A stretch of DNA of 64,000 bases from Eunapius fragilis (taxonomy: Eukaryota; Porifera; Demospongiae; Spongillida; Spongillidae): NCBI GenBank assembly GCA_963681505.1, contig OY811971.1:1351501-1415500 (forward strand), given 5' to 3'. Below the pieces are notes generated by a model, which worked only from the letters and a program-made list of their open reading frames with translations, ran no database searches and was not told the DNA's origin. Numbering within the stretch: position 1 is the first letter of the stretch; every line of letters starts with the position of its first letter. The position numbers and the translations under genes were made by a program. Shown in pieces: positions 20,267-61,002 of the stretch.

Positions 20267-21517
20267 GGATAGAGGACTGGTAATTGAATGTGATTGGTTG
20301 GTTTGGCATCTAAAGGGGTGGACTTGTAACAGCTGACCTACATGCTGATCTGATTGGCTGTTTATTGTGTACCACTATAACCTGAAAAACTGATGTGTAC
20401 AGAACCCTTCAAAGAAACTAGAAGTGATGTGTGTGTGCACATGCATAGGTGTATGTTTATTAACATGTGTGCATGTGTCCATATGCATATAAGTTATGTG
20501 TGTGACTCCAGTGTGTACTCATTTTCATACAGTTTGTTTAAGTTCCATTACTGCACACATGTCACACACACCCATTGGTTAATATAATGTATAATGTATT
20601 GCTTATTTCTTGTTCACAATAAATACGTCACACAAGATCTCTACATGCCAATTCATGCACACCCATACACCACACACACACACACACACACATGCATACA
20701 CATATACACACACATGCTCGCCCCTACATGCACACACATGCTCACACACATGCATACCCCTACACCATATGCACATGCACACATGCACATACACAAGCAC
20801 CCCATAGAGGGATCATATGTACTCATATGGACTTGGATTTGGAAGAGTTGTGTGTGAAGGGCTGTGAATACCACCTTGCACATTCCTATGGTACTACCTA
20901 AACTGTTAACACAACACTCCCTTTGGTTTGCACATTTCTATTGAAGGAGGAGAGGTGACATGTTGGCTTAATGCATGGATGTTTGTATGAGTCAGCAGTC
21001 AGCATAAGTGTGTGTATTCGTTCTAAATAATGCATTACTGAGTACTTGGAGTCCCACAGGGCCACTAGCTTGCATGAGACATGGGAACCATCCCATTCCA
21101 GGGACCACTCCTAGGAGGCCTGGGCACTAGGATAACTCCAGGGGACTGAGGGGTCTCTACTATATAGATACAATTAGTCAGCAACTTCAAGGCTATTTAC
21201 AGTTTGATTGGCACACTCTATACGGAGCTACACGGATACTCATGTGGCATCCAAAGGGTTAACTACTAAACAGAAGTAATGTGACCCCTTTTTGGCCCCT
21301 CCCCTCTTCCCATGTAGGCCTGTGTATGTACATGTCACACCTCTTTGCCCCCTCCCCTCTTCCTCTGTGAGAAATGCCTTGGTGTACTCAAGAATTGAGT
21401 ACACCAATATAGATGTAATCTGTAAAATCTACTGACCTTTATTGTAGAAATAACTTTCAGTGCATCGCTCACCATTCAATAAGAAATACCGCCCCCCGCT
21501 CCACCCCCACGCACTAT
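20267..21517. other. Non-coding DNA with CA repeats
   Basis: Several CA-rich stretches occur (20669-20800), with no coding region. The stretch ends in TAT (21515-21517), the left target duplication of the N-RAG element. Confidence 0.5.
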
Positions 21518-22004
21518 CACTGCAAGAAAAGTATGGTTATCCTAAGTTATCTAGGCTTGAGAAACTTGGGCACGGTTGTATGCGGCTGGAAACTAGGTTT
21601 ACAATTAGAACATTACGGTACCTGTCTAATAGATAGCGAAGAAACACCTCATTAAAAATGCTTATGTTTTAAAGCTCACAACTTCTCAGAAGAAGTAGTA
21701 AATGCAATATTTTAAACTAATATACAACACAACCTTTCATGTTCTTTTATCTATAGTCCTCACGCACTTTCCAAATTTCAGGCCTACCGTATGCGCAAGC
21801 CGTGTTTATAACCCCATGCGGTACTTATTTCGGTTAGGTGGGGAATGAGATCGAATAGAACGGGCTACCCAAAGTTGATCTGGAGGTAAGACTAGTCTGT
21901 CGGTCAAGCCAAGGCATTTCAGTAACGGAACTGACGAACCAGATCTGGTCTCGGATTTTCTGTCACCAGAATAACCTTGAGTGTATCTTATAAATTATCG
22001 ATGC

Positions 22005-25000
22005 ATGTTGCGGGTTACAGGGATGGATTACCACACAAAACAACTGCCGCTGCACTGCAGAGTTTGTGGAAAGAGGCTAATGAAGAGTGGGCAAAAGAAG
22101 TGCACTTATGAGTGCAAAGGATTCACAGATGACCTGTTAACAGCTTTTGCAGTCAACACCTCCACTGACAATGCTCACATCCATCCAGAACGCTTTTGTG
22201 AGTGCTGTCACCTGTCAATGAAGAGAATCATCTGTGCCAGGGCAGAAAAAGTGCACCATAAGTGTACACTGACACCATTTGAATGGGAGGAACATAGAAA
22301 TGAAGGGTGTAAGGTACATATATCTATACATCCCTGCTAGAGTTTACACATGTAACATCATATGCAATACACAGGTGTGTGAGCACTTCAAAGTTGTTGC
22401 AAAATGAGGTAACTCCAAAAAGCTCACTGTTGGCAGAGGACGTCAACCTAGCCTCACACCAAACATGGTAGCTGCACACCTTTGGAAAATTGCCCCTCCT
22501 CCAGTCTTCTCACGGGAACCGTACCCACCATTGTCAGGCCAGAACAACACGACTGTCCTCGATGAGTTGAAATGTGTGGTATGTGCAAACGTGCTTTCAC
22601 AGCCCCTTGAGCTACCATGTGGAAAGCTGGCCTGCACCAGTTGCATTGTACAGCGAGTGACAGCCTCAGCCACAGTGTGCCCTTGCTGCTTGCTGGGTGG
22701 TGGCTTGGTCCCCACTGAGATCAGACCAGCATCCAACCTTATACAACTGCTGCTAAAAGATGTTCTGGTTCAGTGTGTAGTGTGCCATAGGGATATAAAG
22801 GCTGGGTACTATGAAGAACATGAGTGCACACAATCCCTTAGGAAAGAGAAGCAGCGGGATTGTTGAAGAGGGCCATCTCCACCAGCCCTGATCAAGCCAC
22901 AGTACAGCTGGCTACAGGAGGGACGGTTAGGCGTATTCAGTGCCACTTAAATTGTTATGTTATGTTTGACCACCATACCTTGTAGCCAATGATTTCATGA
23001 AGTTAACAAAAGCCCGGCATCCAACTACAGCTGCTTGTTCCAGGACTGTCAAAACACGGTGTTCAGAGATGCACACAGCTAGGAGTGTTATCAGTGGAGG
23101 GGAACCATCCGCCCTGCTTGAGAGTGAGGTGCTCACATTGAATGATGAAGAGAAGAAGTCATTACTGGAGAAGGCAGGGATAACAAATGTCTCAATTGGC
23201 CCAGCTGAAGTATTGGCCATTAAAACTGGCCTTACTATTCCCTGGAATAGACTGAGGCTTCTAAGACGGTAAAGAACTTTATACATATCATAAAAATTAA
23301 CCTATTGTTTGTTCAGGTGGCTCAAAGCATCAGGAGTATCTTTAGCTGGGGAGGAGAGGATGCTCAACATCTGCAGACGAATTGTGGGCGACAACTTGAA
23401 AGGAGAGATGGCTCTGTTTTCATTTCCATCCACTTCTGGTGGTGAGGAGCTTAGGGGAGCAGCTTTGGTTTACATACCAGATCTGGTTCTAAAGGTTGTT
23501 GAACTTTTGGAAGAGAATCAAAGGTTAGGTGCTTAAGACACACACCGATATACAATTAATTTGTTTTGAAACCTAATGCAGGAGTGGACGGCTTACCTGG
23601 CATGATGGGGTCATCCCCGCCAGTGAGATATGGCTAAAAATTGGAGGGGACAAAGGAGGCGGATTCTTCAAAATGAACTTTCAAATAGTGAATGTTGTAG
23701 CGCCTAATTCAGTCCACAACACCTGCGTGTTTTGCTGCTTCGAAGCGGGAGACACTGTCACCAACCTCCATATAGCCCTTGACCGCTACAAAGATCAAGT
23801 AGCACATCTGCAAGGGATGGAATGGAGGTATGAACAGTTATCTAACATGACAGTATAAAGAATAAAATGAGCATTACACAAACAGGCAATACACATTGAA
23901 ATTGTTCATGTGTGGGGACTATGAGTTCATTACTAGAATGTATGGGCAATCTGGAGCAAGTGGTATGTGAGAAACTGGGGCCAAAAAAATGCATACCAAT
24001 ATTTCACCTTTGTAATAGGATGCTACCCACGCTTTTATTGCTTGGTCTTCCATGAGAACATGGTAAAACCTCTCTCAGCCAGAGGACATGCATCACCAAG
24101 AACATATGAATCCATATGCACTGACCATCAGCGCTACATTGCATCACGAGTGAGCAGGAAACAAGTACAGCACTTTTACAACTGCATCACGGAACCTATA
24201 TTTAACATCCCTATTGAACAGGTAAACATGCATTTCGTATTGTTTTTTTGCATAACTACACATACATGCATACACACACATACTTGTGCACATACACACC
24301 CACAAAACACACGTGCACAAGGTTTGCCCCCCAAGGCTACACATCACTTTGGGCATCTTTACAGAGCTTTATGGCTTGCTTGAAGATGAGTGTCATGCCC
24401 TTGACCTTGAACTAGCCCTGCTTTCAAGTGAGCAAGCCCACTCCAGCTTTGACACATATAGCCAAGAGCTGCAAATGCTTCGCTTATTGCAATCGGAGCT
24501 AAAGCAAGCCGAGGAGGCATATGCTGTATTGCAGCAAATGACAACATATGTATCCCTGGTGATTGGGGAGAAAGACCCAGTCACCGCTGATTTTTTTGTG
24601 CAATGTGAAGAAAAAAAGAAACATCTTGGAAAACTAGTAAGCCATATGCACTAAACATACAAAATGTGTAATACAGGCCATGATTTTGCTAGGAAGCAGA
24701 GGTAGCTAAATCTAAAGCTATTGTGGAAAAGGGGTTCTCTAAAAATAAAGGCCCCTTTGTTAAGGCATTGGATGATGCATTACAGTCAGTTGGAGTGCAC
24801 CGTCAACAGTACTTTGGTGGTGCTTTTGTTGGAAATCATGTACATAAGGCTCTAAAGGTACCACAAGTGTAATATATACAAACACATGAATGAGACATCT
24901 CCTACACTTTTTCAGGAATGCAACATTCAGAAGTTGTGCGGGTCTCTATGTGAAACAGCCAAGAATAAATTGCCTCATCGATCTACACAGGCAGAACATC

Positions 25001-25463
25001 GTACTGAGATCCTGGTTAAAGTATTCGCAATGTTTGCAAGATGCCATAACATCTACGACCACAATTTCATTGATGAGACACAAGCTCATGCCTTAGGTTG
25101 GTAATGGACCTTCAGGTGTTTATGTGAACTAAGCCAACAATATTGTTTTTTACAGAGAAGGCTGTGGGAGAGTTCATGACGTTCTTCCGTGAATCCTTCC
25201 CCCAGGCAACAGTCCCCATAAAAATGCATGTATTGGAAGACCATGCTGTTCCATGGGCAAAGTCTTTCCATGTTGGATTTGGTCTACTTGGCGAACAAGG
25301 GGCTGAGTCCATTCATGCTAAGTTCACACGACTTAGCCTATCATACACTGCAATTACTGATAAAGTGCAGCATCTCCTATGTATAGTGAAGGAACACCTA
25401 ATAAGTATTTCCCCACAAGTTGTAGCTACTATCCCTCCTCCACAAAAAAGAATAAAATCATAA
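22005..25463 (+). pseudogene. N-RAG transposase: RAG1-like zinc/RING N-terminus plus DDE-like body
   Basis: Eleven exons join in phase: 22005-22313, 22375 to about 22940, 22986-23268, 23317-23523, 23582-23827, 23886-23962, 24019-24221, 24322-24636, 24693-24857, 24916-25096 and 25156-25463. Exons 1-2 follow RAG1 order: HCRVCGK, IHPERFCECC, a W-x-x-H-x-x-x-C-x-x-C pair, then a RING (CVVCANVLSQPLELPCGK, LACTSC, CPCC) and a second C-x-x-C/H finger. Later exons hold LTWHDGVIPASEIWLKIGGD, GDYEFITRMYGQSGASG and GEQGAESIHAKF. The D, D and E of these blocks are the likely catalytic triad (inference). Lesions are TGA at 22405-22407, a frameshift near 22855, and Lys where the RING usually has His. AATAAA overlaps the stop (25451). 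The ATG at 22023 is an alternative start. Confidence 0.85.
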
Positions 25464-25475
25464 TACTTTGTGTAC

Positions 25476-25619
25476 TTACATCTTCAACCAGCAATCCACT
25501 GCACCTTCGTCTTCAATCTCCTGAGCTATAGTACACATCAGAAAAGCTTCAAGTTTTATCATTTCCCGCACTCGCTCATATGCATGTGAGATCCTCTTGC
25601 CTGCTGAAGCGAAAAGCAT
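25476..25619 (-). CDS. Possible terminal exon of an opposite-strand gene
   Basis: A 47-codon frame on the minus strand contains GKRISHAYERVREMIKLEAF and EIEDEGAVDCWLKM. It sits tail to tail with the N-RAG gene, inside the terminal repeats. A splice acceptor (CTTCAGCAG) lies just inside the frame, so it may be a last exon whose upstream part was lost. The composition is protein-like, but I do not recognise the family. Confidence 0.3.
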   Translation of the reverse strand: MLFASAGKRISHAYERVREMIKLEAFLMCTIAQEIEDEGAVDCWLKM

Positions 25620-26092
25620 AACATCACTTCGCACTTCATAACCAAATAACCAACAAAATGGCTACTTTTAGACCGTTTGAAAACTGCTTCAGAAAATCCG
25701 AGACCGCATGCGTGGAATAAAAAGAAGCAAAATTAGACAAGACGTACACGGAAAACGTTGTTTTATAGCCCATGGAACTTTGTGAGAGTGGCTATACCCA
25801 TTAGAACTCACGGGGTCCATGCGCGCTGAAATAAGTCCCTCACTTCCATTCACTAAACTGAAACGTTTTTGTAAGGTAAGGCCACGTGATTTATATGATC
25901 ACAGGAAGGTCAGAGGTGTTTCTTTAGCATAGTATGGCTTATAGGTGTTTATTGTACTCAGTGTGCTTAGTGTATAGCGCATTCCAAAGGACATCGGTTG
26001 TCAGGTTCGTTGCTATGGGACAGCATACCATTTCAAAATTTTTGGGCGGAGGACCTAGTTTCCACGCGTTCAATGGGAGTAGACAGCCGTGT

Positions 26093-26223
26093 GGGATAAA
26101 CTCACAAAAGTTACCCTAAATCTAGTACAACTCTGCACTACAGTTATCTGATCTATGAATGTAATTTTGTGGTAGTTGTGCAGAGTTATACTGGATTTAA
26201 GGTAACTTTTGTGAGTTTATCCC
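26093..26223. repeat. Palindrome abutting the N-RAG right end
   Basis: A 131-base fold-back with arms of about 46 bases and a few mismatches, outer ends GGGATAAACTCACAAAAG. Its last three bases are shared with the inner end of the right terminal repeat. It may be a small nested element or part of the N-RAG subterminal region. Confidence 0.6.
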
Positions 26224-26276
26224 AAGTTTCTCCAGCCCAGATAACTTAGGATAACCATACTTTTCTTGCAGTGTAT

Positions 26277-51457: not shown

Positions 51458-52102
51458 ATGCCTTCACGTAAACAGAAGAAGAGATTGCAACAACGAGCGG
51501 AATACCTCCAAACCAAAGACGAAGTGTTAGAAATAAAGTCATCGCAAGAGTGTAAAGCTAAAGCCCGTGCGCGCTATTTAGCAAATCCTGAGAAAAAGAA
51601 GGCCTCTGTTCGCGACAGCTACAAGGCAAATCCTGAGAAAAAGAAGGCCTCTGTTCTCGAAAGCTACAAGGCTAATCCTGAGAAAAAGAAGGCCTCTGTT
51701 CGCGAAAGCTACAAGGCTAATCCTGAGAAAAAGAAGGCCTCTGTTCGCGAAAGCTACAAGGCTAATCCTGAGAAAAAGAAGGCCTCTGTTCGCGAAAGCT
51801 ACAAGGCTAATCCTGAGAAAAAGAAGGCCTCTGTTCGCGACAGCTACTATGCTGATGTTGAATCCACGAGGTCTACTAAAAGACAGCGATATCAGAATGA
51901 CATTGATGAAAACCGTGCTTCTAAAAGAGCAAAGTACAAGGACTATTCTGATACCGTTCGGGCATCTAAAAGGAGTCGCTACTGGAAAGACCCCGATGCT
52001 GCCAGATATGCCAAACGAGTGCAATACAAGACACGACACGGTGTCAAGCGCGCTACTGAAAGGACAGACAAAGCTACCACCCAAAGGTGCGTTACAGCAT
52101 GA
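51458..52102 (+). CDS. Basic tandem-repeat ORF at the Helitron 5' end
   Basis: Frame of 214 codons starting MPSRKQKKR. It contains six near-identical 15-residue units of the type SYKANPEKKKASVRE (51586-51845), then degenerating units with the same spacing (RYQNDIDENRASKRAKY, RYWKDPDAARYAKR). It is very Lys/Arg-rich, so nucleic-acid binding is likely (inference). A donor AAAG/GTGCGT at 52087 is conserved in the shrunken copy at 5475 (GTACGT), and the downstream Rep/helicase frame opens at an acceptor, so this is probably the first exon of the Helitron protein. The phases do not match for that donor (phase 2 into phase 0). A weaker donor at 52091 (GTTACA) would fit. Confidence 0.6.
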   Translation: MPSRKQKKRLQQRAEYLQTKDEVLEIKSSQECKAKARARYLANPEKKKASVRDSYKANPEKKKASVLESYKANPEKKKASVRESYKANPEKKKASVRESYKANPEKKKASVRESYKANPEKKKASVRDSYYADVESTRSTKRQRYQNDIDENRASKRAKYKDYSDTVRASKRSRYWKDPDAARYAKRVQYKTRHGVKRATERTDKATTQRCVTA

Positions 52103-60453: not shown

Positions 60454-61002
60454 ATGTCCGACAGTGAATCTGATGACGACGACATGATGCGAGCCATGGC
60501 TGCCGTGTCTCCAACCGCTCCTGAGCCATCGCCACCATCACCTTCACAGGCTCGCCGCCGCTATGAGCTTGGAATCGCTCCGCCACGTCCAGGACTCCAG
60601 CCCCCTGCAGGTCCTGCAGTCGCTCCGCCACGTCCAGGAGGAGTCCAGCCCCCTGCAGGTCCTGGAGTCGCTCCGCCACGTCCAGGAGGAGTCCAGCCCC
60701 CTGCAGGTCCTGGAGTCACTCCGCCACGTCCAGGAGGAGTCCAGCCCCATGCAGGTCCTGGAGTCGCTCCGCCACGTCCAGGAGGAGTCCAGCCCCCTGC
60801 AGGTCCTGGAGTCGCGCCGCCACGTCCAGGTCCAGGACCAGGATATACTGATGTGTATCCTGGACCAGGACACGCTCCTGGACCCTTTCCCCCCGGACCC
60901 AGGTTTAACCCATACCCTCAACAAGGAAGACGGGGGCGGGGGAAGAGGCGTGGCCAGGCGCCTAAACAAACATTTTATAACTGTGTAATAAACAATAAAT
61001 GA
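60454..61002 (+). CDS. Proline-rich repeat protein in the Helitron 3' region
   Basis: 182 residues starting MSDSESDDDDMMRAMAAVSP. An acidic head is followed by five repeats of about 16 residues of the type PPRPGGVQPPAGPGVA (about 60585-60830), then GYTDVYPGPGHAPGPFPPGP, and a basic tail GRRGRGKRRGQAPKQTF. A splice acceptor (GATAG) directly precedes the ATG, so an upstream exon is possible. AATAAA overlaps the stop. A relic of the same frame is present in the outer Helitron (49990-49849), so it belongs to the family and is not a one-off capture. It has low complexity; a function cannot be inferred. Confidence 0.5.
   Translation: MSDSESDDDDMMRAMAAVSPTAPEPSPPSPSQARRRYELGIAPPRPGLQPPAGPAVAPPRPGGVQPPAGPGVAPPRPGGVQPPAGPGVTPPRPGGVQPHAGPGVAPPRPGGVQPPAGPGVAPPRPGPGPGYTDVYPGPGHAPGPFPPGPRFNPYPQQGRRGRGKRRGQAPKQTFYNCVINNK

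Follow-up and report, generated by a model that had tools for sequence, protein, structure and literature searches.

A gene-bearing element in a 64,000-nucleotide stretch of the genome of the sponge Eunapius fragilis (contig OY811971.1, positions 1,351,501 to 1,415,500 of the forward strand; the whole stretch is called the window) is almost certainly a cut-and-paste transposon of the Chapaev superfamily. It spans window positions 21571–26091, its gene encodes the transposase, and it is nested in a miniature inverted-repeat transposable element (MITE) with CACTG ends. An earlier note on this DNA had expected a sponge copy to tie the RAG1 N-terminus to a transposon superfamily. That expectation is borne out in so far as a RAG1-type N-terminus sits on a sponge DDE element, but the link itself was already published in 2015 for Chapaev, as the relevant part of PMC4411706 sets out. 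New here are the sponge family and its anatomy, namely the copy structure, the copies with open frames and the bipartite ends, in which a second motif starts 18 bp into one end and 29 bp into the other.

Boundaries of the element and the surrounding MITE

The inverted repeats at 21518–21570 and 26221–26273 (53 nt, 96% complementary), their CACTG termini and the flanking TAT duplication (21515–21517 and 26274–26276) all exist as the earlier note described them; they bound a MITE, not the gene. We searched the window's own genome with 21518–21700 (42 matches; 40 of 218 candidates were scored), and the query split in two. Most matches began at about query base 54 (21571), and bases 1–53 matched other loci, none of which was shared with the base-54-onward set except the window itself. 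A search with 26092–26273 gave 85 matches, and a count based on 50 of them yielded 24 overlapping opposite-strand pairs, that is, compact palindromic MITE sites of 182–237 bp. Twenty-three of these 24 sites were gene-free, with no room for a gene, and the remaining one was the window's own right part. Three MITE copies were fetched; L046 and L047 had both ends and 3-bp duplications (GTA and TCG, respectively), and L045 had a damaged right end.

When the window flanks were joined with TGGG counted once, an uninterrupted MITE ran across the junction. In an alignment of the joined flanks with the three gene-free MITE copies, the first 60 columns, junction included, were identical in all four rows, and the gene-free copies carried a single TGGG at the junction site. 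From this empty site and the separate occurrence of the two parts in the genome, 21571–26091 is therefore a separate element that jumped into the MITE and duplicated TGGG. The comparison of other copies of 21518–21570, which the earlier note had itself proposed, thus assigned the pair of terminal inverted repeats (TIRs) to an unrelated flanking MITE, the very outcome that the note had named as contradicting it. No autonomous partner of the CACTG MITE family, which shows 3-bp duplications in L046, L047 and the window, was identified; an EnSpm-type element elsewhere may serve it.

Transposase core and RAG1-like N-terminus

A Pfam scan of the element's protein detected PF06918 (DUF1280) with an expectation value (E) of 4.7e-13, and DUF1280 was found in 18/18 aligned relatives (Pfam, E up to 10). 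DUF1280 is the Chapaev transposase and is grouped with RAG1 in the part of PMC3985635 that deals with it, and the hallmarks of Chapaev given in the corresponding part of PMC4079192 are CAC/GTG ends, 3–4-bp duplications, and C(2)C, LH and H(4)H motifs. The sponge family shows all of them: CACGG...CCGTG termini, 4-bp duplications (8/15 copies of the window family and, as described below, 3/3 of a second subfamily and 10/10 of a third class), and a DUF1280 core with DDE, C(2)C, LH and H(4)H. In L020, a copy with an open frame, the corresponding residues are D477, D547, C566/C569, H874/H879 and E900, with LH in PPGLHI at 632–637; these core motifs are present in both L020 and P0046, a relative from the crinoid Antedon. 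In L020, the distance from the second Asp to CxxC is 19 residues and that from the second His to Glu is 21, and the corresponding spacings in RAG1 are close to these.

In the earlier note, the rest of the gene was described as differing from the RAG1 core. Its sequence is that of Chapaev (DUF1280), but the fold predicted for the core of P0046 matches those of RAG1, BbRAGL and HzTransib, at 13–14% identity to RAG1 in structural alignments of the core. The predicted model has the D-D-E residues and the CxxC/HxxxxH zinc site of the RAG1 core, and a RAG1-like core fold is predicted with high confidence.

Exons 1 and 2 proved to follow the RAG1 order, as had been noted before: a CxxC pair, HPxxFCxxC, WxxH...CxxC, a RING and a further CxxC/H finger were all found. 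Similarity to RAG1 beyond the RING, for which the note had asked for a profile check, was also detected. PF12560 (RAG1_imp_bd) matched at E 4.1e-5 and 23.8 bits, just above the cut-off of 23.3 (E 6.6e-6 on window exon 1 alone), and full-length mouse RAG1 ranked first in a profile search of the PDB (residues 152–390, E 5e-19). The Pfam scan at E up to 10 found RAG1_imp_bd in 6/18 aligned relatives, many of these gene models being without the N-terminus. Both PF12560 and DUF1280 were found in P0064, P0067, P0070, P0071 and P0072, with Pfam RING domains in P0070 and P0071, and a search with the P0046 N-terminus alone matched only P0046 itself. Between RING and core, at the position of the nonamer-binding domain of RAG1, a profile of the sequence gave no RAG1 match (best E 0.26, unrelated), in a part of the protein that is poorly modelled. 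These profile matches indicate with high confidence that the N-terminus is of the RAG1 type, beyond a generic RING. In the account given in PMC4411706, the Chapa domain is the N-terminal part of RAG1 in truncated form, is followed by a RING in two Chapaev subgroups and is not encoded by other known transposable elements. The sponge protein has the layout of such a subgroup, a RAG1-like N-terminal zinc domain and then a RING.

Copies, gene model and relatives

We fetched 36 other stretches with matching left ends and compared them. Both ends were located in 15 copies, window included, and a perfect 4-bp duplication was present in eight (the window, L010, L013, L018, L019, L020, L026 and L032). 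Among ten near-full-length copies that were aligned, window included, the closest pair was 99.6% identical, and identity to the window copy was 95.9–98.6% in seven copies, 91.3% in L026 and 74.7% in L032. L020 (951 amino acids) and L032 (948 amino acids) have frames that are open throughout. Their proteins are 75.5% identical, and the ratio of nonsynonymous to synonymous substitution rates (dN/dS) is 0.163 overall and 0.145–0.239 across four regions. With dN/dS at 0.163 between these diverged copies, the protein has been under purifying selection.

Eleven exons with GT/AG junctions make up the gene model (Table 1). In the window copy, the frame of exon 2 is broken by a premature TGA, 10 bp that other copies have are deleted from the same exon, exon 3 starts with a 1-bp difference from several copies, and one cysteine of C(2)C (CxxC) is lost. 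With these lesions, the window copy would be unable to make a normal transposase; it might be mobilised by intact copies. The earlier description of a complete transposon at 21518–26273 consequently fails in both extent and completeness.

L015 and L016 (C9, 9.65 and 9.61 Mb) have left ends about 48 kb apart with the same 20-bp flank, which looks like one insertion duplicated with its surroundings. A family of about 2.0 kb (e.g. C1:3534573-3536558 and C14:1039830-1041849) has Chapaev-type ends and perfect 4-bp duplications and is too short for the full gene; its members are likely non-autonomous elements.

The best database relatives of the protein were Ephydatia muelleri gene models, and full-length relatives were found in Antedon (P0046, 30% identity over 99%) and Asterias (P0047, 29% over 99%). 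P0051, P0056, P0057 and P0059 match the Chapaev protein together with other Pfam domains, namely PF00566 (Nucella), kinase/retroelement domains and PF00443 (two Ephydatia models); they are either fusion genes or annotation artefacts. When viral contigs were searched for relatives, 13 stretches fitted a pattern and none was confirmed. Nothing on asymmetric Chapaev ends or on this sponge family was found in a search of the open-licence literature. 'Spongebob' (PMC4298943) was considered as a sponge Chapaev and rejected; where that source uses the name, it denotes a CACTA element, not a sponge.

Asymmetric ends

Past the terminal CACGG(T/C)TGT, a 12-bp block, TGGAAACTAGGT, is common to both ends of the element, and a match of this length occurred in 1/5000 shuffles. 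Within this block, GGAAACTAGGT starts at bp 18 on the gene's 5' side (short end) and at bp 29 on the 3' side (long end). A loose pattern with a spacer of 1–45 gave 75 matches in the fetched copies and the window, 30 of them at bp 18 and 11 at bp 29. The others were the left end of L039 at 17 and coding-region or scattered matches (14 at 13, 2 at 26–27 and 17 at 40–49). The right ends of L034 and L041, though more degenerate, also have the motif at 29. Genome-wide, CACGGNTG-gap-GGAAACT gave 167 matches versus 34 for the reversed control; among the first 100 of the 167 listed, 72 were at 18, 17 at 29 and 11 elsewhere.

The same arrangement was found with other motifs. In a second subfamily, both ends carry GGAAACTTAGT, likewise at 18 and 29, with 4-bp duplications in 3/3 elements, and 0/5000 shuffles matched. 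Its member L060 encodes a distant Chapaev that, apart from a missing middle, aligns with the L020 protein in three segments at 30–42% identity. A third class, defined by GGACATTAGG, gave 112 matches versus 0 in controls (41 at 18, 48 at 29 and 11 elsewhere among the first 100 listed), and 10/10 elements examined had 4-bp duplications. L061 of this class, with the long motif at 28, also encodes a distant Chapaev, aligned in ten segments over L020 residues 5–943 at 34–60% identity. In the window copy, L060 and L061, it is the short end that lies 5' of the gene.

Ends from the two lists of 100 were paired if they faced each other within 8 kb, which gave 30 pairs; one of them (C1:3531043-3536558, 29/29) was dropped as a mis-pairing, a nearer partner existing at 3534573. 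All 29 retained pairs consisted of one short (18) and one long end, and none was short-short; the long motif was at 29 in 22 pairs, at 28 in four, at 30 in two and at 33 in one. As in 12/23-type signals, the ends are bipartite, about one helical turn apart, and each element has one of each. The usual offset between the ends is the same number as in the 12/23 signals (23 − 12 = 11).

A long-end pattern with two free gaps gave 140 matches versus 0 in controls. In the first 100 listed, the motif was at bp 29 in 65, at 28 in 31, at 30 in two and at 33 in two, and the bp-28 class shows that end length is not absolutely fixed. In the 65 ends with the motif at bp 29, CATTGAA came after 7 bp in 44 and after 8 bp in 21; the total spacing is thus kept although the landmark shifts. 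The spacing also persists where 9/19 long-spacer bases have changed, and changes in the second motif have affected both ends jointly. Such concerted change is most simply explained if this motif is a transposase-binding site. Judged from these sequence patterns, a functional 12/23-like rule in this family is plausible.

In a P0023-type family (L048–L050), no clean or recognisable ends and no 18/29 ends were found in the three loci read. The homology between L049 and L050 stops inside apparently truncated copies, and this family neither supports nor contradicts the asymmetry. L048 and L049 (C20, about 2.11 and 2.04 Mb) share 97% identity across 3.77 kb, beginning with the first base of L049, and are likely a segmental duplication carrying a P0023-type Chapaev.

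Table 1 Features of the Chapaev-type element and its target in the window.
Feature	Position	Strand	Basis
CACTG MITE left part, insertion target	21518..21570	+	genome matches, MITE copies, empty site
TGGG target-site duplication, left copy	21567..21570	+	end comparison; single TGGG in gene-free MITEs
Chapaev-type transposon, 4521 bp, CACGG/CCGTG ends	21571..26091	+	homology to other copies starts/stops here
Short end: CACGGTTGT, then GGAAACTAGGT from bp 18	21571..21598	+	motif scan, block comparison
Exon 1, RAG1-type N-terminal zinc (Chapa) domain	22005..22313	+	PF12560 E 6.6e-6 on exon alone; open in L019, L020
Exon 2: CxxC, RING, CxxC/H finger	22375..22932	+	copy alignment, domain scans; donor 22926 or 22933
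Exon 3	22986..23268	+	copy comparison
Exon 4	23317..23523	+	copy comparison
Exon 5, first catalytic Asp in GGDKGG (codon 23649-23651), DUF1280	23582..23827	+	domain scan, motif
Exon 6, second catalytic Asp in GDYEF (codon 23917-23919)	23886..23962	+	motif
Exon 7, C(2)C motif, one Cys to Arg in window copy	24019..24221	+	copy comparison, motif
Exon 8, LH motif	24322..24636	+	motif
Exon 9	24693..24857	+	copy comparison
Exon 10	24916..25096	+	copy comparison
Exon 11, HxxxxH motif, catalytic Glu (codon 25305-25307), stop	25156..25463	+	motif
Long end: CACGGCTGT, then GGAAACTAGGT from bp 29	26053..26091	-	motif scan, block comparison
TGGG target-site duplication, right copy	26092..26095	+	end comparison; single TGGG in gene-free MITEs
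CACTG MITE right part, starts with duplicated TGGG	26092..26273	+	genome matches, MITE copies, empty site

Elsewhere in the window, 51584–51847 is a 45-bp tandem repeat (5.9 copies, 97% matches, consensus AATCCTGAGAAAAAGAAGGCCTCTGTTCGCGAAAGCTACAAGGCT), and PEKKKASVRD, closely similar to the peptide of this repeat, occurs close to the N-terminal end of P0013, a Chapaev gene model. Another tandem repeat, of 48 bp, occupies 60570–60830 (5.5 copies, 94% matches). An Rfam scan of the window gave no match at gathering scores.

Discussion

We tentatively propose that Chapaev elements with a RAG1-type N-terminus, a RING and a RAG1-fold core obey a 12/23-like rule, in which a short and a long end must synapse together; this is possible, though short of probable. 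As to mechanism, the transposase of the sponge element would recognise both the terminal CACGG-TGT and the second motif of each end (GGAAACTAGGT in this element) and would synapse one short with one long end. Cutting would proceed through the RAG/Transib-like DDE core with its CxxC/HxxxxH zinc site, and insertion would occur with a 4-bp stagger. Roles in dimerisation, regulation or ubiquitin transfer, known from RAG1, are probable for the N-terminal zinc domain and the RING.

The asymmetry could instead be a frozen accident, a single ancestral 11-bp insertion that was inherited and imposes no functional requirement for short-long pairing, and this too deserves to be taken as a genuine possibility without being the expected answer. 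It agrees with the data all coming from one genome, with the CATTGAA core common to long spacers and with the bp-28 class (31 of the first 100 long ends listed), by which the length is not strictly fixed. It fits less well with a spacing that is kept despite changes in 9/19 long-spacer bases, with the joint change of the second motif at both ends, with the covariation of this motif in three classes and with the 29/29 paired elements that are short plus long. The CATTGAA landmark also speaks against it, since 21 long ends have it 1 bp further in and 44 have it 1 bp nearer, all with the motif at bp 29.

As for the assignment of the gene-bearing element to Chapaev, several observations weigh against it. 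Seven of the 15 copies lack a clean duplication: L023, L025 and L041 show no match, the right end is rearranged in L024 and L031, and the left end is degraded in L034 and L044. The structure model is that of the crinoid relative P0046 (30% identical over 99%), not of the window protein; its predicted local distance difference test (pLDDT) score is below 50 for residues 1–154 and mostly below 60 from RING to core (about 240–370). RING models match below the Pfam cut-offs, and L020 reads as an open frame only with its exon 2 donor at 22926; the donor used for L032, at 22933, lies 7 bp downstream.

A RAG-like (RAGL/ProtoRAG) or Transib transposon with a RAG1L gene in place of Chapaev is nonetheless very improbable. 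The predicted core fold does match RAG1, BbRAGL and HzTransib, and the N-terminus matches RAG1, but the duplications in three subfamilies are of 4 bp and not of the 5 bp of Transib and RAGL elements, the core belongs to the DUF1280 sequence family, and its identity to RAG1 in structural alignments is low. Hardly credible as well is one EnSpm/CACTA-type transposon at 21518–26273 with 53-bp CACTG ends and a 3-bp duplication carrying the gene, as the earlier note had it: the repeats, termini and TAT duplication exist, but bases 1–53 and 54–183 of the proposed left end occur separately in the genome, the MITE has compact gene-free copies with duplications of their own (L046 and L047), the gene-bearing family ends at 21571 and 26091 with 4-bp duplications, and the empty site already refutes this reading. 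The EnSpm/CACTA mechanism was rejected because the gene-bearing element shows all the Chapaev hallmarks, with a TGGG duplication, CACGG/CCGTG ends and a Chapaev core; the 3-bp duplication belongs to the MITE.

The Chapaev assignment places the sponge element beside several known systems. It has the domain order (Chapa, RING, DDE core) of the Chapaev elements described in the Chapa section of PMC4411706, which are named there from lancelet and sea anemone, whereas the present family is from a sponge. It shares CAC/GTG ends, a 4-bp duplication and a DUF1280 core with Chapaev as outlined in PMC4079192 and PMC3985635. Aplysia N-RAG-TP, as mentioned in PMC8355894, is likewise a transposon-borne protein resembling the RAG1 N-terminus.

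With vertebrate RAG1, the element shares a collinear N-terminal zinc domain, a RING with finger and, as predicted, the RAG1-core fold. The RAG1 12/23 signals are bipartite ends differing by 11 bp, as in the sponge element; unlike in those signals, the second motif of the sponge element is not evidently nonamer-like. No second gene was evident in its list of open reading frames, and no search aimed at RAG2 was made.

In the comparison drawn in PMC8289069, ProtoRAG prefers asymmetric TIRs (27/31 spacers), and the TIRs of most Transib families are symmetric. ProtoRAG/RAGL elements resemble the sponge element in having asymmetric TIRs and a RAG1-like core, and differ in their 5-bp duplications, their RAG2L partner and a spacer difference of 4 bp versus 11 bp. 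HzTransib differs in its symmetric TIRs (same part of PMC8289069) and 5-bp duplication, and the N-terminal domains are absent from canonical Transib according to the treatment in PMC4411706.

The N-terminal region of RAG1, its core and the 12/23 asymmetry are usually explained separately, and the sponge family brings together an N-terminus like that of RAG1, a core predicted to fold like that of RAG1 and an 11-bp offset between its ends. With the open copies L020 and L032 and a closest pair at 99.6% identity, the function of the asymmetry is directly testable outside the RAG lineage. If the proposed rule is true, the transposase would be the reader of the asymmetric ends, and the logic behind the asymmetric signals of V(D)J recombination would either predate RAG-like transposons or have arisen twice on the same protein architecture.

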